A DNA stretch of 50,350 nucleotides from Oscillospiraceae bacterium (GCA_015067245.1 SVMV01000002.1:1-50350), one strand, 5' to 3'; shown: positions 3,872 to 30,661, counted from the first letter of the stretch. Notes: generated by a model not told the origin, from the sequence alone. Made by a program: numbers and translations.

Positions 3872-4550
3872 TGTTGCAGTTTTAATAACAGGTTTTTTGG
3901 GATGTTTTATAAAAAAAGCAATACCAAAACATATTGAACAGGCAATTATGAATATGGTGGGCCTGTCTGTTACGCTTATTGCACTGCTTGGATTTTTTTC
4001 CACAGCACTTACAATAGAAAACGGAACAATTAAATCAAACGGCGAAATAATGATGCTTGTATGCCTTGCGCTGGGTGTTGCAATAGGCGAAATGCTGCGT
4101 ATAGATGACCATCTTAACACCTGGGGTAAAAAAATAGAGGATAAAGCAGGGGTTGACGGCTTTGCAAAAGGTTTTGTAAATGCATCACTGCTTTTCTGTG
4201 TTGGTGCAATGGCAATTTTTGGCGCACTTAAAGACGGTATCAGCGGCGACAGCAGCGTACTTATCGTAAAAAGTATGATAGATGCAATTACAGCTTTTGT
4301 TTTAAGTACATCACTTGGCATAGGTGTTGCTTTTGCAGGCGTTTCTGTTTTTATATATCAGGGTACAATTGCAATGATGGCCACATATATTCAGCCTTTT
4401 GTAACCGATGCAATGATGATGAATATATGCACAGTAGGTTATGCAATTGTATTGGCTATAGGCACAAATATGCTGGGGCTTACAAAAATAAAACTTGCAA
4501 ATACTCTGCCGGCTATTGTCCTTGCGGTAATATATACTTTTTTGGTTTAA
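3849..4550 (+). CDS. DUF554 family membrane protein
   Basis: MTGTIINSVAVLITGFLGCFIKKAIPKHIEQAIMNMVGLSVTLIALLG and VGAMAIFGALKDGISGD typical of DUF554; overlaps preceding ORF by 23 nt. Confidence 0.85.
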   Translation: MTGTIINSVAVLITGFLGCFIKKAIPKHIEQAIMNMVGLSVTLIALLGFFSTALTIENGTIKSNGEIMMLVCLALGVAIGEMLRIDDHLNTWGKKIEDKAGVDGFAKGFVNASLLFCVGAMAIFGALKDGISGDSSVLIVKSMIDAITAFVLSTSLGIGVAFAGVSVFIYQGTIAMMATYIQPFVTDAMMMNICTVGYAIVLAIGTNMLGLTKIKLANTLPAIVLAVIYTFLV

Positions 4551-4584
4551 ATCCTGTTATAGTTTCAATTAAAGGATAAGTTAT

Positions 4585-6471
4585 ATGTTAATAGTTTTGT
4601 ATACAGTTTTTTTCTCACTTGTATGCACAGAAATTGCAGTAAGATACAAAAAAGAGATTGTTGAAATATTACCTGTTGTTTTCAGTGCTTTTGTTTTGCT
4701 GCTGTATATTCTGGCGTTTATCAACAGAATGTGGTTTGCAGATATAATTGCATTGGCGGCAGTGCTGGCAATTATTATAAAGGAGATAAATACAAAAGAA
4801 AAAAATGTGTTTCAGAAATATACACAAAAATTGTTTAAGCCTTCTGTTATCGTTTTTTCGCTTGTATGCATTGTTGGTGTAATTGCACTGTCAGACAGGG
4901 GTATATGGTCAAATGACGACCTTGCATTTTGGAGCATAGATACAAAAACCATTTTTTCTTTACAAGGTTTTTCGGCCTTTGGGTTGCAGACAGTCCCGGA
5001 ATATGGCGATTATCCGCCTGTTTCGCAGATTATAGAAGCATGGTTTATGCACATTGTTGGGAAATATGATGAAGGTCTGATGTTTTCTGCTTATTTCCTT
5101 GCAATGCAGATATATACAGCGCCAATTTTAAAAAATATGCCATCCAAAATAATAACATCGTTAATGTCTTTTGTGTGGCTGTTCTTTATTTATTCATTTG
5201 GGCCTAATATTCTTTTTGATTTATCTGCAGATGTGCTTATGGGGATAATTTACGGCTCTGTAATGGTGCTTGCGTTTTACTGGAAAAATAAAACAGGGGC
5301 AGAATATTTGTCATTGGGCATAATGTTAAGTGTGCTTACACTTACAAAATCGGTTGGTATTCAATGGGCTGCATTTGCACTGATATTTATTTTGCTTATG
5401 GAGCATCCGGTTTTAAAATTTAAAAAGCAGCAGCTGTGGCTTGCCACACCAGTTCTGTCATGGCTGTCATGGAATGTTTTTTGCAGAATAAGCGGAAGAA
5501 CAACCTATCTTACCCAGCTGCTTAAATCTTCAGTTACAGGACAAAGCAGCCAGGATATGTATCTTGAGTACGGAGAAGCTATGAAAAAGTCTTTTTTCAA
5601 GGCTTTAAAGTTCAATCAGCAGACATCAACAGCAAATCTTGGTTTGGGAACAACAGACTTTATTGTTCTTTTTTTGGTATTTCTGATTATCTGGTGGGCC
5701 ATTAAACTGATTGACAGATATGAGTTTGGAAAAATTTTCACATTTATGCTTGTAACAGGTGTAGCGGAATATGCAATACTGCTTTTCTCGGTGCTCACAA
5801 TGTTTATACACGAAACATGGTATACAGAGTATGAATTTATGCTTGTTCTTCTTAAACGATACGGTGCGCCTTATATAATAGGCTTTTTACTTGTAGTTGT
5901 GGGGGTGCTGTTTGAAAGGATAAACGACAATACCCTTGCTTTTATCAGATTAAAGTTTTTTGTCAAAAACAAAAAGACAATTATATGGATTGCAGTGATT
6001 GCAGTGCAGCTTCTGTTTGTTCCTTTTGAGCAGGAAATAAAAAAATATGTTACATACAGGGATAACGAAGCCCCTGTAGAGTATGATTATAACGAAGCGG
6101 TATATCAAAAGAATATCGAAGAACAAAGACCATATTTTATAAGCAGCGTAAATGCACTTGGTGAACTGACAGATTTCAAAGCCGAAAAAATACTGATAAT
6201 ACACGATGAAACTGTGTGGAAACAGTATGAACTCAGAAACCTGAGATACTATGTGGCACCACTGTGCATATATTCAGAAATTGCAGATAATATAGATGTA
6301 CAATCAATGACACAGCTGGTTGCAGACAATAAATTTACAGGTATATGCTTTATATCTGATGATACTGGTAATAATATACCAAAACAGCTTGGGTTTGATG
6401 ATAATACTGAAACATTTAAAGTATATCGCATAAATACAAATAATAACCAGCTTAGTCTTGAAGAAATGTGA
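4585..6471 (+). CDS. Large polytopic membrane protein, possibly glycosyltransferase-39-like
   Basis: 628 aa, many TM segments, C-terminal soluble domain; no confident family. Confidence 0.6.
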   Translation: MLIVLYTVFFSLVCTEIAVRYKKEIVEILPVVFSAFVLLLYILAFINRMWFADIIALAAVLAIIIKEINTKEKNVFQKYTQKLFKPSVIVFSLVCIVGVIALSDRGIWSNDDLAFWSIDTKTIFSLQGFSAFGLQTVPEYGDYPPVSQIIEAWFMHIVGKYDEGLMFSAYFLAMQIYTAPILKNMPSKIITSLMSFVWLFFIYSFGPNILFDLSADVLMGIIYGSVMVLAFYWKNKTGAEYLSLGIMLSVLTLTKSVGIQWAAFALIFILLMEHPVLKFKKQQLWLATPVLSWLSWNVFCRISGRTTYLTQLLKSSVTGQSSQDMYLEYGEAMKKSFFKALKFNQQTSTANLGLGTTDFIVLFLVFLIIWWAIKLIDRYEFGKIFTFMLVTGVAEYAILLFSVLTMFIHETWYTEYEFMLVLLKRYGAPYIIGFLLVVVGVLFERINDNTLAFIRLKFFVKNKKTIIWIAVIAVQLLFVPFEQEIKKYVTYRDNEAPVEYDYNEAVYQKNIEEQRPYFISSVNALGELTDFKAEKILIIHDETVWKQYELRNLRYYVAPLCIYSEIADNIDVQSMTQLVADNKFTGICFISDDTGNNIPKQLGFDDNTETFKVYRINTNNNQLSLEEM

Positions 6472-9418: not shown

Positions 9419-10591
9419 TTATTTTAAAATTTTGCTGAGCAGGCTTGGAGCGTCAGCTTTATATTCCACACCAAGATAATCTGCAACAGTTGCACCAATA
9501 TGGGCAAAGCTGGTTATTGTGCCAAGGTTGTTGTTTTCCCTGATGTTTTTACCAAAGATAAGCAAAGGTACACATTCACGGGAATGGTCGGTAGACGGAG
9601 TGCCAGGGTCACAACCGTGGTCCGCAGTGATTATAAGCATATCATTATCACGCATTTTAGAGATAAATGTGCCAAGCCAGCTGTCAAACTCTGTAGCGGC
9701 GTTTGCATATCCATCCACATCATTGCGGTGTCCGTAAACAGAGTCAAAATCCACAAGATTAACAAAAGCAAGTCCGTCAAAATCTTTGTCCAGCAATTTA
9801 TATGTTTCGGCAACACCAATATCATTTGTTCCTGTTTTAATCTTTTCGGTAATGCCTTCGCCGTCAAAAATATCATATATTTTGCCAACGCCTATAACAT
9901 CTTTGCCAGCGGCTTTAATATAGTCCAGAACAGTCTTTTTAGGTGGTTTAAGGGAATAATCGTGCCTGTTGATTGTGCGCTTAAAAGTGCCGTTTTCGTC
10001 GGTTATAAAAGGTCTGGCAATAACACGGCCAACTGCATGTTCACCAACCAGCATATCTCTTGCGATCTGGCAGTACTCATACAGTTTTTCAACAGGAACA
10101 ACATCTTCGTGAGCGGCAACCTGAAAAACACTGTCGGCAGAAGTATATACAATAAGGTCACCTGTTTTTATATGTTCAGGGCCAAATTCTGCAATAACTT
10201 CAGTGCCAGAATAGGGTTTGTTGCATACAACATTTTTACCTGTAAGCTGTTTGTATTTTTCAATAACGTCGTCTGGAAATCCGTTTGGATAGACAGGCAG
10301 CGGTTTTTCGCTTTCAACACCTGCAATTTCCCAGTGGCCTATTGTTGTGTCCTTACCGTTGGATGCTTCTTTTATCCTTGCAAAGCTTCCTGCAGGAGCA
10401 GGCTGTTTTTCTCCGCAGTCAACGTCATCAATATTAAACATACCAAGTTTTGCCATATTTGGTATATTAAATCTGCTGCTTTTGGAGATAGAAAGCAAAG
10501 TGTTGCTGCCCTCATCACCAAATTTGTCAGCATCAGGCATACCGCCTATGCCAAAAGAGTCCAGAACTATCAAAAAAACTCTCTTTTTCAT
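9419..10591 (-). CDS. deoB: Phosphopentomutase
   Basis: 390 aa; MKKRVFLIVLDSFGIGGMPDADKFGDEGSNTL, TTIGHWEIAG, DHGCDPGTPSTDHSRE. Confidence 0.97.
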   Translation of the reverse strand: MKKRVFLIVLDSFGIGGMPDADKFGDEGSNTLLSISKSSRFNIPNMAKLGMFNIDDVDCGEKQPAPAGSFARIKEASNGKDTTIGHWEIAGVESEKPLPVYPNGFPDDVIEKYKQLTGKNVVCNKPYSGTEVIAEFGPEHIKTGDLIVYTSADSVFQVAAHEDVVPVEKLYEYCQIARDMLVGEHAVGRVIARPFITDENGTFKRTINRHDYSLKPPKKTVLDYIKAAGKDVIGVGKIYDIFDGEGITEKIKTGTNDIGVAETYKLLDKDFDGLAFVNLVDFDSVYGHRNDVDGYANAATEFDSWLGTFISKMRDNDMLIITADHGCDPGTPSTDHSRECVPLLIFGKNIRENNNLGTITSFAHIGATVADYLGVEYKADAPSLLSKILK

Positions 10592-10819
10592 ATTAGCACC
10601 TCTTATTTATGAAGTTTATATATGTAGCAATTATTAAAAAACATAATATTATATATAATATAGTATAACACATATTGTGTGTAAAAAAAATAAAAATTTA
10701 TGGAATAATAGTACATATTTTCAGCAAAAGGCAACCATTTTCTATGGTGAAATTTTTTTGAAAAGGTATAATATTTTTTAGAGTTAAATTTAGTATTTAA
10801 TTATAGGGAGAAATATATT

Positions 10820-21606: not shown

Positions 21607-22524
21607 CTATATTTCTGCAGGGATAACCACAGTTCTGTCAAAAACAGGGAAAGAAATATCTATAAGCGGATATTGCCTGTTGTTAAAGTTTCTTACAATT
21701 TCATCAGCTGCAGTTTTGTAGTCTGTATAATCAATAAAGCAGTTCAAAACAAAAGGTGTTTCGGCCATGGTGTTTGCAGTGCCTTCGCTGATAGTTATAA
21801 GTTCTACACCGTTTGAATAAGGTGTGTATTCGTTTATGTACGCCGAAGCGGTTTTGTCTATAACAATAAGAGCCTCGTTTGCTTCGTTAAGGGAAACAAT
21901 ACTGTTGCCGTCAGTAACTTCATCGGGAGAGATTGCACTGTTAATCTGCATCGGCACACCATAAAGTTCAATGCCTGCAATCAAGGTATCATAAAAATTC
22001 TGCATATTTGCCGAAAGTTCTTCTTTTTTTACCGTTGCAAAGGTAAAAATCATATTGTCATCTGCATCAATTATAATTCTGTCAGCCCAAAGCTGTTTTA
22101 TTTTTTCAGCTGTAATTTCAGCGGCATGTGTATAATTTGTTGTTATGCAGAATGCTTTGTCATAACTTTTAAGTATTTCATTGTTTATGCTGGTAAAGGC
22201 AAAGGTTACAGGCAATTCTTTTGTGCGCACAAAATCAATAAACTTTTGCGCTGATTCTTCGCTGATATTTTCGCTGTAAAGGGTAATGCTGTTTAGTCCT
22301 TCGCTGCTTGCATTTAATGCGCTGATAATAATATCAATGTGCTGGTCAGAAAATTCGGTTGTCATAACACTGTAGTTTTCGCTTTCAAAGCTGGAAAGGT
22401 ATTCGCACATTTCACTCATAGCAACATCACATATTGCCAGGTCATACGGTGCAATTTCTTCTTTTTCGCTGCAACCACATAAAAGCAGGACAATAACAGA
22501 TAAAACTGAAATTAAACGTTTCAT
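21607..22524 (-). CDS. Lipoprotein, periplasmic sugar-binding/LacI-like solute-binding fold
   Basis: 305 aa; lipobox LLLCGCSE; two-domain SBP-like pattern. ATGA overlap with upstream AraC gene. Confidence 0.65.
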   Translation of the reverse strand: MKRLISVLSVIVLLLCGCSEKEEIAPYDLAICDVAMSEMCEYLSSFESENYSVMTTEFSDQHIDIIISALNASSEGLNSITLYSENISEESAQKFIDFVRTKELPVTFAFTSINNEILKSYDKAFCITTNYTHAAEITAEKIKQLWADRIIIDADDNMIFTFATVKKEELSANMQNFYDTLIAGIELYGVPMQINSAISPDEVTDGNSIVSLNEANEALIVIDKTASAYINEYTPYSNGVELITISEGTANTMAETPFVLNCFIDYTDYKTAADEIVRNFNNRQYPLIDISFPVFDRTVVIPAEI

Positions 22525-23375
22525 AAATCTCCTTGAGTTTCCAAAGTCTGCAGATATTTGCTTGGCGGAACTTTCTTGATTTTCTTAAATACGCGTGAAA
22601 AGTAGAACTGGTCAAAAAAGCCAACCGAAACTGCAATTTCGGAAATGGACAGGTTTGTATTTTTAATAAGAGTACACGCTTCGTTTATGCGGTACTCGGT
22701 AAGATAATCAATAGGGGACTGATTAAGGTTGGATATGAACACACGGTAAAGGTGACTGCGGCTTATGCCTACAGCGCTTGCAATATCGTCAACGCTTATA
22801 TCAGAAGAATAGTTGAACTGAATATATTTGATAGCATCAATAACATAGTTGGACTGGGTTGCAGTCTGCGGCTGAACATTTATTGCGTTTTCTTCCATAA
22901 GTTTGGATAAGAACAGATAAAGATAACCAATCATGGATGTGGTGTGCTTCATTGTGTTGCCGCTGTTGCTGTATATTTTGTACAAAAAGTTCTTATATTC
23001 TTCAATATCAGACGGTGTGTACACAGGCATATTGTCTTTAAAAGGCAGATGGGAAACAAGCTTCTGGGCATTTGTTCCGTTAAAACCTACCCAATAATAC
23101 TCCCAAGGGTCGCTTGGGTCTGCAACATAATAAACAACCTGTGATGGTTTTACCAAAAACAAATCGCCAGCTTTAAGATGAAATGTCTTGCCGCCGCAGA
23201 TATAATTGCCTTTGCCGGAAGTAACAAGATGGATAAGGAAGTGGTCACGGATACCAGGTCCCCAGGAATGGTTTGGGGTACAGCTTTGCAAACCGCAGTT
23301 AAATATTGCAAGACTTGCATTGTCCAGCAATTTCTGTTTGTAGGATTGTCTGTAAGGGTTAGACATATGTTGCAC
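22521..23375 (-). CDS. AraC-family transcriptional regulator with cupin-like sensor domain
   Basis: 284 aa; C-terminal HTH pair (SVDDIASAVGISRSHLYRVF ... LSISEIAVSVGFFDQFYFSRVFKKIKKVPPSKYL). Confidence 0.93.
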   Translation of the reverse strand: MQHMSNPYRQSYKQKLLDNASLAIFNCGLQSCTPNHSWGPGIRDHFLIHLVTSGKGNYICGGKTFHLKAGDLFLVKPSQVVYYVADPSDPWEYYWVGFNGTNAQKLVSHLPFKDNMPVYTPSDIEEYKNFLYKIYSNSGNTMKHTTSMIGYLYLFLSKLMEENAINVQPQTATQSNYVIDAIKYIQFNYSSDISVDDIASAVGISRSHLYRVFISNLNQSPIDYLTEYRINEACTLIKNTNLSISEIAVSVGFFDQFYFSRVFKKIKKVPPSKYLQTLETQGDL

Positions 23376-23519: not shown

Positions 23520-23547
23520 GTGACAATTACTTTATATATGTTATAAT
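23520..23547 (+). promoter_or_regulatory. Putative promoter of galK-like operon
   Basis: GTGACA - 16 bp - TATAAT, about 40 nt upstream of start codon. Confidence 0.55.
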
Positions 23548-23587: not shown

Positions 23588-24874
23588 ATGCTTTCGGTTT
23601 TGCTTAAAGAGAAAATATTGAATGACGAATATGCTGAAATTTTTGCAGACCTGTATGGTAAAAATACAGCAAATGCGCAAAAAGAACGCTATGTAAAAGC
23701 TGTGGAAAAATTTGAAGAAATATACGGTACAGACAGAGATATTGCTGTTTATTCTGCTCCAGGAAGAACAGAAATATGTGGCAATCATACCGACCACAAC
23801 TGCGGATTAATTGTAGCAGCGGCAATAAGTGAAGATACCATTTGTGTGGCATCAAAAAATAGCGAAAATCTTGTAAAAATAGCGTCCGAAGGATACGCAG
23901 AAATGCAGCCGATAAATCTTGAAAAGCTGCGTGCAACAGTTTCTGACGAAGGAACAACAAGAGGGCTTGTCAAAGGTATCTGTGCAGGCACAATAAAATG
24001 GGGTGGACAGTGCAAAGGACTGGATTTATATATTACTTCTGATGTTCTGCAGGGCTCGGGTCTTTCTTCTTCTGCAGCATTTGAAAACTCAGTGGCTGCT
24101 GCGATTAACGGTGAATACAACGATAATAAGTTTACTGCGGTAGAACTGGCACTGATTTCTCAGTATGCAGAAAACGAGTATTATGCAAAGCCTTGCGGTG
24201 TTATGGACCAGACAACTTCTGCAGTTGGCGGCACAATATGTCTTGACCTTGAAGATGTTTTAAATCCTAAAGTTACACCATTGCCGCTGGACTTGGAAAA
24301 ATTTGGTCTTGTAATGTGTACAGTGGATTCAAATGCAAGTCATGACAATCTAACCGAAGAATACGCAAGCATGCCAAAAGAAATGAAGGATATTGCGCAG
24401 ATTTTCTGGAAAGACAGCCTGCGCAGACTTGATTTGCCAACCTATATAAATCATATTTCGTTCCTGCGTGATATGGTGGGAGACAGGGCAGTTTTGCGCG
24501 GTATGCATTTTTACATGGAATGTAAACGTGTTGAAGATTTATGCAAAGCTGTTGAAAATGGTGATAAAGATATGTTTGTCAGAAAAATTACCGAAAGCGG
24601 ACATTCATCCTACGAATATCTGCAGAATGCCTATGTTGCTTGTGAAGTAAAAAATCAGCCTATGGCAGTTGCATTGTCGGTTGCACAAAGCTTTTTGCAG
24701 GACATTGGAGGTGCATGGCGCTTGCAGGGCGGTGGCTTTGCAGGTGCAATACAGTGTTTTGTTCCAATTGAAAAGGTGGAAGAATTTAAAAAATATATGG
24801 AGATTGTTATGGGCGAAAACTGCTGCAAAACAATCCGACTGCGCAAAGAAGGCGCAATAAAAGTTATTGACTAA
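23588..24874 (+). CDS. galK: Galactokinase-like GHMP kinase
   Basis: 428 aa; SAPGRTEICGNHTDHNCG, GSGLSSSAAFE and WRLQGGGFAGAIQCFV GHMP motifs; extended N-terminus. Confidence 0.85.
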   Translation: MLSVLLKEKILNDEYAEIFADLYGKNTANAQKERYVKAVEKFEEIYGTDRDIAVYSAPGRTEICGNHTDHNCGLIVAAAISEDTICVASKNSENLVKIASEGYAEMQPINLEKLRATVSDEGTTRGLVKGICAGTIKWGGQCKGLDLYITSDVLQGSGLSSSAAFENSVAAAINGEYNDNKFTAVELALISQYAENEYYAKPCGVMDQTTSAVGGTICLDLEDVLNPKVTPLPLDLEKFGLVMCTVDSNASHDNLTEEYASMPKEMKDIAQIFWKDSLRRLDLPTYINHISFLRDMVGDRAVLRGMHFYMECKRVEDLCKAVENGDKDMFVRKITESGHSSYEYLQNAYVACEVKNQPMAVALSVAQSFLQDIGGAWRLQGGGFAGAIQCFVPIEKVEEFKKYMEIVMGENCCKTIRLRKEGAIKVID

Positions 24875-24897
24875 AAAATTTAGATAGGAGAAAAATC

Positions 24898-25644
24898 ATG
24901 GGTGATTATTTGTCACAGGTAAACGCAACAAGCTTTTATGTTATAGTTGCGGCAGTACTTGCATTTATCACAATTATGTGTGGATATATTGTTGTTAAAT
25001 GCTACAGAGCAGGTATAAAAATGGGCATGGACCCAGCTGCTCTTAAAAAAACAGTTACATCAAGTGCAACATTTACACTGTTGCCGTCCATCAGCATTCT
25101 GCTTGGTGTTATTGCTCTAAGCGGCACATTGGGTGTTCCGCTTTCCTGGCTGCGTCTTTCGGTTATAGGTTCTTTGCAATACGAACTTAATGTTGCCGAA
25201 ATTGCAGCACAGAGTGTTGGCCTTTCAGGGTTAAGACTGGAAGAAATGAGCATCCAGTCCTTTGTTACAATTGCGTTGGTTATGACAGTAGGTATTCTTG
25301 GCGGTCTGCTTTTCACACTGTTTTTCCTTAAAAAATATCTCAACAAAATCCGCAAAGCACCTAAAAAAGAAAACAGCGGCAAACCAGGCTTTGGCGCACA
25401 TGCAACAACAGCAATGTTTATCGGCCTTTGCGGTGCATATATCGGCGCATATATCGGTAAAGCAGTGCCAAGGGAAGGCAGCGATATAATGCCGCTGCTT
25501 GTGGCTATAGTGGCAGGCATTGCAATGGCAGGCTTTGAGTTTCTTATCCAGAAAAAAGGCAAACACGCACTGGAAAACTTCAGCCTTGCAGCAAGTATGC
25601 TTATAGCTATGGCAGCAGCTGTAGGCTTTGGATTTATCATTTAA
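24898..25644 (+). CDS. DUF5058 family membrane protein
   Basis: 248 aa polytopic; 23 nt after galK; sequence pattern recalls DUF5058. Confidence 0.7.
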   Translation: MGDYLSQVNATSFYVIVAAVLAFITIMCGYIVVKCYRAGIKMGMDPAALKKTVTSSATFTLLPSISILLGVIALSGTLGVPLSWLRLSVIGSLQYELNVAEIAAQSVGLSGLRLEEMSIQSFVTIALVMTVGILGGLLFTLFFLKKYLNKIRKAPKKENSGKPGFGAHATTAMFIGLCGAYIGAYIGKAVPREGSDIMPLLVAIVAGIAMAGFEFLIQKKGKHALENFSLAASMLIAMAAAVGFGFII

Positions 25645-25658
25645 GGAGGTGCAGATTT

Positions 25659-26333
25659 ATGAACGAAAAAGAAAAATATATAGAAGATTTTAACAATGGT
25701 CTGCATCGTCTTGGCAGAACTTTGATGGTAACAACAATTATTCTGCTTATAGGTGTGCCATTTGTTTTTGGTGCAATTCACGGCGTTATGCCGGACGCAA
25801 AAGGTTTTATTGCAGGATATTTAAAAGTTGCAATGATTTATTTGCCTGTTTCCTTTGTGGAATTTTTGGTGTACGCACCAATGCTTGGGGTTGGCGGCAG
25901 TTACATTGCATTTATCACAGGTAATGTAACAAATATGAAGATTCCTTGTGCAATGAATGCTCAGGATATTGCAGGCACAAAACCTGGCAGTCCTGAAAAC
26001 GAAATTGTTACAACAATAAGCACAGCGGTAAGTGCTATTGTTACAACTTTGGTTATTGTTGCAGGTGTTGTGCTGCTTGTACCATTGCAGCCTGTGCTGC
26101 AGAACGAAGTGCTTCTGCCTGCATTCAACAATGTTGTTCCAGCACTTTTTGGCGCCCTTGGCCTTAAATATTTTGCAAAAGCACCTAAAGTTGCATTTAT
26201 TCCTGTTCTGCTTATGACTTTGCTGTGCATCTTTGTTCCGTCAATGATTAACCAGACAAGCGTACTTATGATTCCTTGCGGTGCGCTGGCATTGCTTATC
26301 GGCTTTATACTTTTCAAAAAAGATAAACTGTAA
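25659..26333 (+). CDS. Conserved membrane protein, partner of DUF5058 protein
   Basis: 224 aa, multiple TMs; GVGGSYIAFITGNVTNMKIPCAMNAQDIAGTKPGSPENEIVTTIST; own SD and tight spacing. Confidence 0.7.
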   Translation: MNEKEKYIEDFNNGLHRLGRTLMVTTIILLIGVPFVFGAIHGVMPDAKGFIAGYLKVAMIYLPVSFVEFLVYAPMLGVGGSYIAFITGNVTNMKIPCAMNAQDIAGTKPGSPENEIVTTISTAVSAIVTTLVIVAGVVLLVPLQPVLQNEVLLPAFNNVVPALFGALGLKYFAKAPKVAFIPVLLMTLLCIFVPSMINQTSVLMIPCGALALLIGFILFKKDKL

Positions 26334-26349
26334 AAAAGGGGAGATAACA

Positions 26350-27783
26350 ATGAAAATTTTACTTGTAGTTCTGGCTGTGATAATTGTTGTTATAGCTGTT
26401 GTAATTCTGCGTACAGTAACATTGAAACCTACAGCAGCACTTGATGCAAAGGTAGAACTGGACACAACGCCCCGTGCAGATGAATACGGTGCAAAACTTG
26501 CCAAAATGGTGCAGAGAGAAACAATTTCTCATCGCGGCCAGACCGACCGTACAAAGTTTTTTGAATTACATAAAGATTTGGAAACAATGTTCCCAAATAT
26601 TCACCAAAAATGCGAGAAACATGTGTTTAACGGCAGTTTGCTTTTTAAATGGCAGGGTAAAGGCAATTCAAAACCTGTGCTGTTTATGAGTCACCACGAC
26701 GTAGTTGAAGCAACAGGCCAGTGGGAACACGAACCTTTCAGCGGTGATATAGATGAAACAGGCCGCATCTGGGGACGCGGCACAGTTGATACAAAGGCAA
26801 GCCTTTTCTGCATGCTTCAGGCAGTTGAAGAACTTATAGAAAGCGGTTTTGAGCCTGAATGTGATGTGTATATTGCTTCCAGCTGTACAGAAGAATGGTC
26901 TGGTGAAGGTGCACCTGCAACAGTGCAGTACCTTAAAGACAATGGCGTTGAACTTGCATATCTTATGGACGAAGGCGGTATGATTCTGGAAGAACCAGTT
27001 GGCGGCGTTAAAGGTATGTACGGTATGGTTGGCGTTGTGGAAAAAGGCTATGGCGATGTTAAATTTATAGCACGCAGCAATGGCGGCCATGCCTCAGCGC
27101 CAACAAAAAACACACCCCTTGTACGTCTTGGCAAATTTATGGCAGATGTGGAAAAAAATTATCCTTTCCGCAGCGAATTAAGCCCAACAGTACGCGAAAT
27201 GTTCCGTCGCATGACACCAAATATGTCCTTTGCAATGAAGATGATTTTTTCAAATCTCTGGCTGTTTGAAAAACTTCTTGTAAAGCTTTTGCCGTCCATA
27301 AGTGCACCTGCAGGGGCTATGACACGCACAACACTTGCCTTTACAACAGCAAAAGGATCTGGCGGATATAATGTTCTGCCACAGGAAGCTTATGTAACAG
27401 GCAATATGCGCTTTATTCCTCATCAGGATGCTGATGAAAGCATTAAGATTATCTCTGATTTTGCTAAAAAATATGACATTGAAAGCGAAGTTATCTATTA
27501 CGATAAATCCTGTCCTGTTGTTGATTACAACAGCAAACCATTCCATATGGTAGAAGAAGTGGCAGCAGAAGTATATCCTGGCATCCAGATTTGCCCATAT
27601 ACAATGACTGGCGGCACAGATGCAAAATTCTATCGTGATTTAACACCAAACGCATTGCGCTTTGCTCCGCTTTATATTGATAAACAGCAGTATGGCAGTA
27701 TCCATGCACTTAACGAAAATATATTTAAAGGTGCGCTCCCTTTGGCAGTTGATTTTTATAAATCAATGATAAAGAAAAGCTGA
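26350..27783 (+). CDS. M20 family metallopeptidase, N-terminally membrane-anchored
   Basis: ATG 26350 (MKILLVVLAVIIVVIAVVIL); FMSHHDVVEA, WGRGTVDTKASLFCMLQ, CTEEWSGEGAP, MTGGTDAKFYRDL. Track start 26281 overlaps previous gene and is likely wrong. Confidence 0.92.
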   Translation: MKILLVVLAVIIVVIAVVILRTVTLKPTAALDAKVELDTTPRADEYGAKLAKMVQRETISHRGQTDRTKFFELHKDLETMFPNIHQKCEKHVFNGSLLFKWQGKGNSKPVLFMSHHDVVEATGQWEHEPFSGDIDETGRIWGRGTVDTKASLFCMLQAVEELIESGFEPECDVYIASSCTEEWSGEGAPATVQYLKDNGVELAYLMDEGGMILEEPVGGVKGMYGMVGVVEKGYGDVKFIARSNGGHASAPTKNTPLVRLGKFMADVEKNYPFRSELSPTVREMFRRMTPNMSFAMKMIFSNLWLFEKLLVKLLPSISAPAGAMTRTTLAFTTAKGSGGYNVLPQEAYVTGNMRFIPHQDADESIKIISDFAKKYDIESEVIYYDKSCPVVDYNSKPFHMVEEVAAEVYPGIQICPYTMTGGTDAKFYRDLTPNALRFAPLYIDKQQYGSIHALNENIFKGALPLAVDFYKSMIKKS

Positions 27784-27803
27784 ATATAGCATTAAATAAA
27801 AAA

Positions 27804-27836
27804 ACTGTACTCACTAGAATGTGGGTACAGTTTTTT
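27804..27836 (+). terminator. Intrinsic terminator ending galK-DUF5058-M20 run
   Basis: ACTGTACTCAC-TAGAAT-GTGGGTACAGT + TTTTTT. Confidence 0.85.
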
Positions 27837-28110: not shown

Positions 28111-29172
28111 TTATTTGCGCAAAATAGTAAATACCCCAATTTTTTTGTCAAAACATATTATAAAGCACATTGATAAAATCAGCATAAAAGCAGATATGTG
28201 CGGTGCATTCCAATACATATTTACGCTGATATCACTACTTGCATAAACGGCAAATGTTTGAGGAAAAAGATTAATTAAAATGCGAAGAATGAGTAGTGAC
28301 AATGGTATGTGAACAAGCTTTGACAGCCATAAAATTTTAAAACTTATTTTATTGTTTGATCCCGCAGATTTAAGTTGAAAAATAGTGCTTAAAGGGCAAA
28401 AACTGAGAATGGCGCATAAAATATACAGATTACTCCCAAGAGTATTAACTGCCATACTGCAGGCAGCTGTGACCTCAAATAATGCGGCTAAAGCAACTGA
28501 AATAAGTGTGTTATCTGTGTAAATCAATATAACTTTACACAATGAATATGTAAAAACAACTATTCCGCATATATTTAAAATTGAAATTACCGAGGTTTTT
28601 ATTGCATAGATAAAATCACAGCAGCCAGGGTCGTTTTCACCACAGCTATTATCTGTATATGGAAAAATAAAAGAAAATAAAAATGCAGTTATAAAACAGG
28701 AAATAAGTATGGCACAATACAGCATCACACCACTTGCAGTATGCCCAAGCATGCAGGTGCCCACAGCGGTTATAACAAAGGCTGGGGAGTTGTTGCTCAT
28801 AATTACAGAAAGTACGCCGAGCATATTTTTATTGCAGTTGGTTTCTCTGTTTATTTTATCCAGAAAAAATCCGCCAACGGCAAATCCGCTTAAAACGCTC
28901 AGTATGCAATAGGTGATTGTTTTTCTGTTTTTTATATTCAGCAGTCTGAACAAAGGAATAAACGGCAGACTTAAAAATTCAGTACATTTTAAACCAGATA
29001 AAAATGTTGCAAGCACCATAAAGATAAACAGGGAAGGAATAACTGTGTTATAACAAAGCTGCAATGCATCTTTTATATATACAGCAATGATTCCCGCGTT
29101 TTTAAAATATATAAAAATAACAAAAAGAATCAGCACATAATAAAATATATTTTTAAAAATTTTAATCTGCAT
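28111..29172 (-). CDS. YlbJ-like sporulation integral membrane protein
   Basis: Polytopic; nucleoside-recognition-like pattern, SNNSPAFVITAVG; start at ATG 29172 after GAGGTGAT. Confidence 0.75.
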   Translation of the reverse strand: MQIKIFKNIFYYVLILFVIFIYFKNAGIIAVYIKDALQLCYNTVIPSLFIFMVLATFLSGLKCTEFLSLPFIPLFRLLNIKNRKTITYCILSVLSGFAVGGFFLDKINRETNCNKNMLGVLSVIMSNNSPAFVITAVGTCMLGHTASGVMLYCAILISCFITAFLFSFIFPYTDNSCGENDPGCCDFIYAIKTSVISILNICGIVVFTYSLCKVILIYTDNTLISVALAALFEVTAACSMAVNTLGSNLYILCAILSFCPLSTIFQLKSAGSNNKISFKILWLSKLVHIPLSLLILRILINLFPQTFAVYASSDISVNMYWNAPHISAFMLILSMCFIICFDKKIGVFTILRK

Positions 29173-29229
29173 ATCATCACCTCGCATATAAATATATATG
29201 TTACAAAAAACATTTTTAGGTGATACAGT

Positions 29230-29538
29230 ATGAGATTAAAGCCTGTCAAAGAAAAAATATCTATAAAAACAGTTATAAACGAAATGTTTTCAAAAACAGA
29301 CAAATCCAGTGCAGCTTCAATATGCATAGATGTAGACGGTGGAATAGTTCTTGAAAATTTTCGCAGGATAATCGACTACAAAAGCGACAGAGTGGCCATA
29401 GAGACAAGGTATAAGTTTGTGTATATATATGGCAGCAATCTTTCTATAACTTATTGCGACAAACATTTTGCATCGGCTTGCGGAGATATAGAAAAAATAG
29501 AAATTTTTTCAGGGAAGGAGCAAAAAAATGCTCGCTAA
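29230..29538 (+). CDS. yqfC: Sporulation protein YqfC (YabP/YqfC family)
   Basis: 102 aa; GGIVLENFRRIIDYKSDRVAIETRYKFVYIYGSNLSITYCDKHFASACGDIEKIEI; upstream of yqfD. Confidence 0.88.
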   Translation: MRLKPVKEKISIKTVINEMFSKTDKSSAASICIDVDGGIVLENFRRIIDYKSDRVAIETRYKFVYIYGSNLSITYCDKHFASACGDIEKIEIFSGKEQKNAR

Positions 29539-30661
29539 AATAAAAATAGAAATAATTTCTGGACTGTACGAAGATTTTATTAACTGTCTGGTAGAAAAAG
29601 AGATTTATATATCTTCAGTAATGTCAACAGATTTTGGTGTAACCTGTATATGCATGGCAAAAGATTATGCACATATTGCAAGACTGGCAAAAAAATTTCA
29701 GTGCAGAACTAAAATTTGTAAGAGAAAAGGTGTTTATTATTTATTTAAAGGCATAGTAAAGCGCAAAAGTGTTGCTGTTGCAGTGTGCTCGGTGTTTATA
29801 TATATTTTTTTGTTCACTAAACTTATATGGCGCATAGAAATAATATCCCCAAACCAGCAGATAAACCAATCGGTATATAATCTTTTGTACAACAATCAGG
29901 TGTATGCAGGGGCAGTGTTTTCACAGGAGAAAAATCAAAATATAATACAGCAGATTTTTATGAGTGTGGAAGATGTTGGATATGTAACACTGAATTTTTA
30001 TAAAGGTACACTTACCTGTAAAATAGATCCTGTACAGGAAAAAATGCTATATCTTGAAAAAGCATCAACAGGCAATATTGTTGCGTCACAGAATGGTGTA
30101 ATAGAAGATTTGCGTGTGTACAGTGGATTTTCTGATGTAAAAATAGGGCAAACTGTAGAAAAAGGGCAGATTCTGGTCAGCGCAACCTATATCGACCGTA
30201 ACGGAAAACTGCAGCAGGTTATGCCAAGAGCGTATATCAAGGCTCATTGTGTAAAAAAATACACAGCACAGATTGAAATGGAAAAAGAAATTTATCTGAG
30301 AACAGGCGAAAGCACAGAAGGTATTTTTTTAAAGGCTTTAGGCAAGGATATAACACTAAAAAGAGAAAATATATCGGACTACATAAATTATGACACTGAA
30401 AAATCCTTTAAATATATCAGCATATTGGGGTTTAAACTTCCTTTTACAGTTGAAAAAGCAATATATTACAAAAAAGAGGCAACTTATATAACCAAAGATG
30501 AACAAACAGCATACAGCGCCGCAAAAAACATTGTTGATACAATGATAAAAAATGATATATCTCTGGAAGAAACAGACTGGCAGGATTACAGCTATACTGT
30601 AATCGGTAATCAGCTTACAATAGAATGTACAGTTCAGGGACATTATGATATTACAAAATAA
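29528..30661 (+). CDS. yqfD: Sporulation protein YqfD
   Basis: 377 aa; single TM and C-terminal domain typical of YqfD; conserved yqfC-yqfD-phoH order. Confidence 0.9.
   Translation: MLAKIKIEIISGLYEDFINCLVEKEIYISSVMSTDFGVTCICMAKDYAHIARLAKKFQCRTKICKRKGVYYLFKGIVKRKSVAVAVCSVFIYIFLFTKLIWRIEIISPNQQINQSVYNLLYNNQVYAGAVFSQEKNQNIIQQIFMSVEDVGYVTLNFYKGTLTCKIDPVQEKMLYLEKASTGNIVASQNGVIEDLRVYSGFSDVKIGQTVEKGQILVSATYIDRNGKLQQVMPRAYIKAHCVKKYTAQIEMEKEIYLRTGESTEGIFLKALGKDITLKRENISDYINYDTEKSFKYISILGFKLPFTVEKAIYYKKEATYITKDEQTAYSAAKNIVDTMIKNDISLEETDWQDYSYTVIGNQLTIECTVQGHYDITK

Follow-up and report, generated by a model that had tools for sequence, protein, structure and literature searches.

Gene organization of the locus

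We analyzed a 50,350-nucleotide (nt) stretch of DNA from an Oscillospiraceae bacterium (GCA_015067245.1 SVMV01000002.1:1-50350; hereafter, the window), and focused on an operon encoding a membrane protein of the DUF5058 family, a second membrane protein (hereafter, the partner), and an M20 metallopeptidase. The source genome (G000) is a 1.57-Mb assembly with 77% completeness, and near-identical loci were present in Oscillospiraceae assemblies from goat and sheep gut. The operon comprised four plus-strand genes at 23588–27783, with gaps of 23, 14, and 16 nt, in agreement with the initial annotation, which had described four co-directional genes spaced by 14–23 nt and closed by a strong terminator at 27804. 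The terminator was likewise recovered at about 27799–27836 on the plus strand, as a 16-bp stem with a 6-nt loop and a T run; its fold reached -21.8 kcal/mol (z = -7.8 versus shuffles), and a simple terminator scanner overlooked the hairpin.

The first gene (23588–24874, plus strand) encodes a GalK-like GHMP kinase of 428 amino acids (aa), with the Pfam domains GalKase_gal_bdg and GHMP_kinases_N. It is followed by DUF5058 (24898–25644, plus strand; 248 aa; Pfam PF16481, E = 3e-63), the partner (25659–26333, plus strand; 224 aa), and an M20 metallopeptidase/aminoacylase of the PRK08262 type (26350–27783, plus strand; 477 aa), with Peptidase_M20 (E = 1e-26) and M20_dimer domains and an N-terminal membrane anchor. 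The DUF5058 match covered the full profile (positions 1–222 of 222) at 213.7 bits, compared with a gathering cut-off of 28.2, and the partner had no family match in Pfam or NCBIfam. The M20 start was set at the ATG at 26350, preceded by a GGGGAGA site; the mechanically called open reading frame (ORF) begins at a GTG at 26281.

Upstream of the kinase gene, a promoter-like site (GTGACA-16-TATAAT with a TG extension; 23520–23547, plus strand) ends 40 nt before the gene and agrees with the consensus at 11 of 12 positions; this is a consensus match alone, and such matches were not more frequent across the region than in shuffles. Folding of the kinase/DUF5058 gap in the window revealed no terminator-like structure, and the search for known RNA elements in the window found none.

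Conservation of the DUF5058–partner pair

We compiled 142 loci: 80 seeded on the partner, 58 seeded on DUF5058, three from annotated plasmids, and the window itself. The DUF5058-seeded loci were taken independently, from DUF5058 searches of four evenly sampled phyla. According to the script, the genes for DUF5058 and the partner stood side by side in the same orientation at 138 of the 142 loci, or at 139 after correction of L004, where an ORF had been mis-called and the annotated genes adjoin. DUF5058 came first in nearly all cases. In another exceptional locus, L055, a 750-nt gap separated the two genes. The partner was found at all 58 loci seeded on DUF5058 alone. The two families form a near-obligate pair, and their recurrence together with M20 genes beyond the window genome, which the initial annotation had named as a check, was confirmed by the neighborhood analysis.

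The pair was observed in Oscillospiraceae, Lachnospiraceae, Synergistota, Deltaproteobacteria, Paracoccus, and haloarchaea. DUF5058 was detected in 45 of 121 genomes of the Synergistota sample, compared with 21 of 250, 3 of 148, and 6 of 148 in the other samples. Several copies per genome were possible, with five DUF5058 matches in one genome and four in others. Both proteins contained several hydrophobic segments with conserved motifs inside them; the partner carried a GxYxxFxxGN motif around residue 80, and its G77, Y82, G88, and P96 were invariant across 78 homologues. The distance matrices of DUF5058 and the partner correlated with r = 0.94 over 137 loci; however, this correlation was uninformative and is explained by shared descent, because M20A genes correlated nearly equally in their subset (0.96–0.98).

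Two disrupted copies were also encountered. The partner was broken into two ORFs in L201, and an in-frame TGA split the DUF5058 gene at L108:7990-8688 (minus strand; genome G021), which was intact in G065 of the same genus.

Linked hydrolases and amino-acid context

An M20 gene was the immediate neighbor of the pair at 109 of the 142 loci, including 47 of the 58 DUF5058-seeded loci. In a background control, M20 accounted for 113 of 272 flanking genes versus 1 of 651 genes farther off; because related loci are not independent, the corresponding Fisher value should not be read as a true probability. Upstream or downstream of the pair, depending on the locus, the linked M20s comprised membrane-anchored PRK08262-like proteins (the window's among them), two kinds of TIGR01891 amidohydrolase, and DapE/ArgE-like proteins. 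At five DUF5058-seeded loci without M20, another amide hydrolase took its place, namely an M42 aminopeptidase (L122), amidohydrolase-family proteins (L121, L232, and L236), or an M81/MlrC protein (L234), and a Xaa-Pro-dipeptidase-like enzyme was among the hydrolases standing in for M20 in some loci. This recurrence with differently folded enzymes, whose common trait is amide-bond cleavage alone, is the strongest functional clue. The core system consists of three genes: DUF5058, the partner, and an M20 amide hydrolase.

The metal-ligand and catalytic motifs of the window M20 were intact (HHD, GRGTVDTKA, TEE, DEGG, and HALNE), and its PF01546 and PF07687 domains both scored above the cut-off. 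It reached 251 bits against the PRK08262 equivalog (PM20D1/CPS1-like; cut-off of 510) and is therefore a related protein outside that equivalog. The membrane anchoring proposed for this enzyme was borne out by a single N-terminal hydrophobic segment. Such a segment was present in 29 of 30 M20s of the window's subtype, whereas all 100 M20s belonging to the D, B, and DapE-like subtypes lacked it. Within the anchored group, the figure for Lys/Arg residues was 3.6 after the segment versus 1.3 before it; because these residues follow the segment and almost no residues precede it, the positive-inside rule makes a cytoplasmic orientation of the catalytic domain probable. If cleavage takes place in the cytoplasm, intact substrate would have to enter the cell.

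Directly 3' of the M20 gene in three closely related loci, L030 (9124–10590), L029, and L032, we observed a family-less, apparently membrane protein of 457–488 aa, which was absent from that position in the window.

Regarding the wider context, five of the eight haloarchaeal loci were located near glycine-cleavage (gcv) genes within the fetched stretch, and two more were near lpdA/lipA. In L233, the pair lay in a cluster of sarcosine/glycine reductase genes, with a Na:alanine symporter alongside. A PatB-type C-S lyase gene was found 3' of M20 in three Lachnospiraceae loci (L033, L034, and L037), and a PucR regulator or a glutaminase was encoded at other loci. These contexts point to amino-acid compounds as the likely substrate class, without implying one single substrate. 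Judging by the neighboring enzymes, the compounds may be conjugates of glycine in haloarchaea and of cysteine in some gut Lachnospiraceae, with dipeptides as candidates elsewhere.

Predicted structures of the two membrane proteins

AlphaFold2 monomer models were built from 78 and 74 homologues, with annotated plasmid rows left out. The DUF5058 model contained only helices, with a predicted local distance difference test (pLDDT) score of 83.5 and a predicted template modeling (pTM) score of 0.69; the partner model was also all-helical (pLDDT of 86.8 and pTM of 0.67). The order of long and short helices was similar in the two models. Their profiles gave a weak co-linear match (E = 0.0025–0.01), which ranked high among 100 block-shuffled controls and below the best of them, so a common origin of DUF5058 and the partner is possible. 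Profile searches of Protein Data Bank (PDB) sequences returned only a weak match to MerF (E = 0.007), which was judged to be due to chance.

Proposed function and alternatives

We consider it reasonably probable that DUF5058 and the partner constitute a two-subunit secondary transporter that imports small amide-linked amino-acid compounds, which a neighboring enzyme hydrolyzes inside the cell. Import is favored because the two genes are nearly always adjacent and the usual neighbor enzyme cuts peptide-like bonds. In the proposed scheme, the heteromeric pair would take up N-acylated amino acids or short peptides; the neighboring hydrolase (M20 in the window) would then cleave them, either within the cytoplasm or on the inner membrane face, and release an amino acid for catabolism. 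The initial annotation had regarded the two proteins as a probable two-subunit transporter for an amide-linked sugar conjugate or peptide; the recurrence of the pair and its pairing with M20 strengthen the transporter part, and the sugar part was dropped.

Several points weigh against import by the pair. The 80 partner-seeded loci were drawn from a genome collection by likeness to the window and cannot be counted as independent. Two of the loci (L043 and L090) had the partner and no DUF5058 profile match, and a minority, including Christensenella-like ones, carried the pair without a recognizable hydrolase. Both structural models represent monomers, with pTM values under 0.7, and Foldseek searches against the PDB returned no match with E < 1 for either of them, with model quality as a limiting factor; because neither model matches a solved structure, no known transporter fold lends support. 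The direction of transport is unreadable from sequence. What emerges for the uncharacterized family pair is a functional hypothesis with good support, short of a proven transporter.

We also propose, tentatively and with clearly less confidence than import as such, that the two proteins are paralogous half-transporters and together define a secondary transporter family that is new, has a fold of its own, and is distributed across bacteria and archaea, with each copy adapted to the amide on which the adjoining hydrolase acts.

Among the alternatives, the one that survives best is that the pair exports the amino acid or acid product freed by the hydrolase. Two-subunit exporters of branched-chain amino acids exist (AzlC/AzlD and BrnFE), linkage of a small membrane protein pair to an enzyme that releases amino acids would also fit efflux, and the contextual evidence is neutral on direction, which the sequence itself does not reveal. 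However, the associated sarcosine reductase, gcv, and C-S lyase genes consume the likely products, and the apparently cytoplasmic location of most linked hydrolases requires that their substrates enter the cell; we regard export as unlikely. Still less probable is a membrane platform or sensor that localizes the hydrolase without transporting anything. The near-obligate hydrolase linkage and the membrane anchor of the window M20 itself would suit such a role, but a membrane segment is missing from most linked M20s and the hydrolases come from distinct families, which makes shared docking unlikely, and both proteins are nearly all helical with conserved motifs within several hydrophobic segments.

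A two-subunit importer would join an uncharacterized family and a partner nameless in Pfam and NCBIfam in one testable transport system. Among the papers searched, none mentioned DUF5058 or PF16481. Synergistota are amino-acid fermenters; the system was present in more than one-third of the sampled genomes of this phylum and in ruminant gut Clostridia, where it may account for a share of the peptide and amino-acid flux.

Comparison with known systems

The M20-family hydrolase AbgA/AbgB (PMC5082436 for the hydrolase) and the permease AbgT form an uptake-then-cleavage system. There, an amide (p-aminobenzoyl-glutamate) is taken up and then cleaved by M20-family enzymes, an order of events shared by the arrangement proposed here, but AbgT is one large permease, whereas the present pair comprises two small proteins without Pfam similarity to any permease. 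The YjiH-YjiG-IadA system of Escherichia coli, which combines Gate-family proteins with an isoaspartyl dipeptidase, shares the layout of two small membrane proteins plus a dipeptidase. Comparisons of DUF5058 and the partner with YjiG/YjiH yielded hhalign probabilities of 0.1–1.5% (single sequences) and no Pfam Gate match; homology was rejected for lack of profile similarity.

DUF969/DUF979, encoded with pyrrolidone carboxypeptidase (Pcp), have been supported as a 5-oxoproline transporter by growth data of a Campylobacter mutant (PMC12795558), and a structural argument identifies them as halves of the IT superfamily (PMC11467057). They serve as a precedent for the proposed importer, being likewise a pair of small membrane proteins encoded together and adjacent to an amide hydrolase, with a Pcp-like gene visible beside the pair in the fetched genomes, but the hydrolases differ from those beside the DUF5058 pair. 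All hhalign probabilities between DUF5058 or the partner and DUF969/DUF979 were below 1%, and homology was rejected on this lack of profile similarity, although the test is weak because the control DUF979/DUF969 pair failed as well. The DUF5058 pair resembles both systems by anatomy, and membership in either is not claimed. The window's own genome also contained a DUF969/DUF979 pair (L248, C19), beside a 324-aa protein that was not Pcp-like.

The GHMP kinase

The kinase shares the GHMP motifs of galactokinase (GalK), and its best PDB matches were galactokinases. It differs in having Asn for the Glu of the GExTDY motif and approximately 36 extra N-terminal residues, and its scores were far below the NCBIfam equivalog cut-offs (130.9 versus 226.65 bits for TIGR00131 galactokinase). 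The divergence of the first motif, remarked on in the initial annotation, is not peculiar to the window: the form GRTExxGNHTDH is a clade feature common to the genus relatives. In five of these relatives, the kinase gene adjoins GalT, which suggests that the enzyme is an ordinary one of the galactokinase type. GalT had no match in G000 (77% complete) or in the five nearest kinase-bearing relatives.

The kinase adjoined or nearly adjoined DUF5058 in the window's genus only. In L028, which has the same block (RlmD, lipoprotein, AraC, and DUF5058-partner-M20), it was missing, and the AraC gene adjoins DUF5058 there; in L026, a 579-aa polytopic membrane protein without a Pfam match (4489–6228) lies between the kinase and DUF5058. 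On this synteny, core membership was rejected, and the kinase is an accessory local neighbor that gives no basis for inferring a sugar conjugate. Uptake and cleavage of such a conjugate, with the kinase phosphorylating the freed sugar, as first envisaged, would fit the kinase's position 17–28 nt 5' of DUF5058 in three relatives as well as the window, the terminator-free gap in the window, and the nearest kinase-bearing relatives' lack of a GalT match, but it is the least probable alternative and was not borne out, given the restriction to one genus, the absence from L028 and displacement in L026, the GalT linkage of the same kinase clade elsewhere in the genus, and the other lineages that have the pair and M20 without the kinase. 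The partner protein of the kinase-displaced L026 was 95% identical.

Neighboring features of the window

Divergent from the operon, an AraC-family regulator (22521–23375, minus strand; Pfam AraC_binding and HTH_18) is a possible regulator of it. The AraC gene overlaps by 4 nt with a lipoprotein gene (21607–22524, minus strand) whose product is weakly similar to the periplasmic sugar-binding protein MglB, by NCBIfam PRK15395 alone (E = 6e-5). Both genes are kept there in relatives, even those without the kinase, and may form a sensor-regulator pair (21607–23375). Just downstream of the operon are sporulation-type proteins, namely a YlbJ-like protein (weak match; 28111–29187) and a YqfD-like protein (29528–30658). 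Elsewhere in the window, two long ORFs overlap on opposite strands at 9419–10612; the minus-strand ORF encodes a metalloenzyme-superfamily protein, and the plus-strand ORF, which has no Pfam match, is probably spurious.

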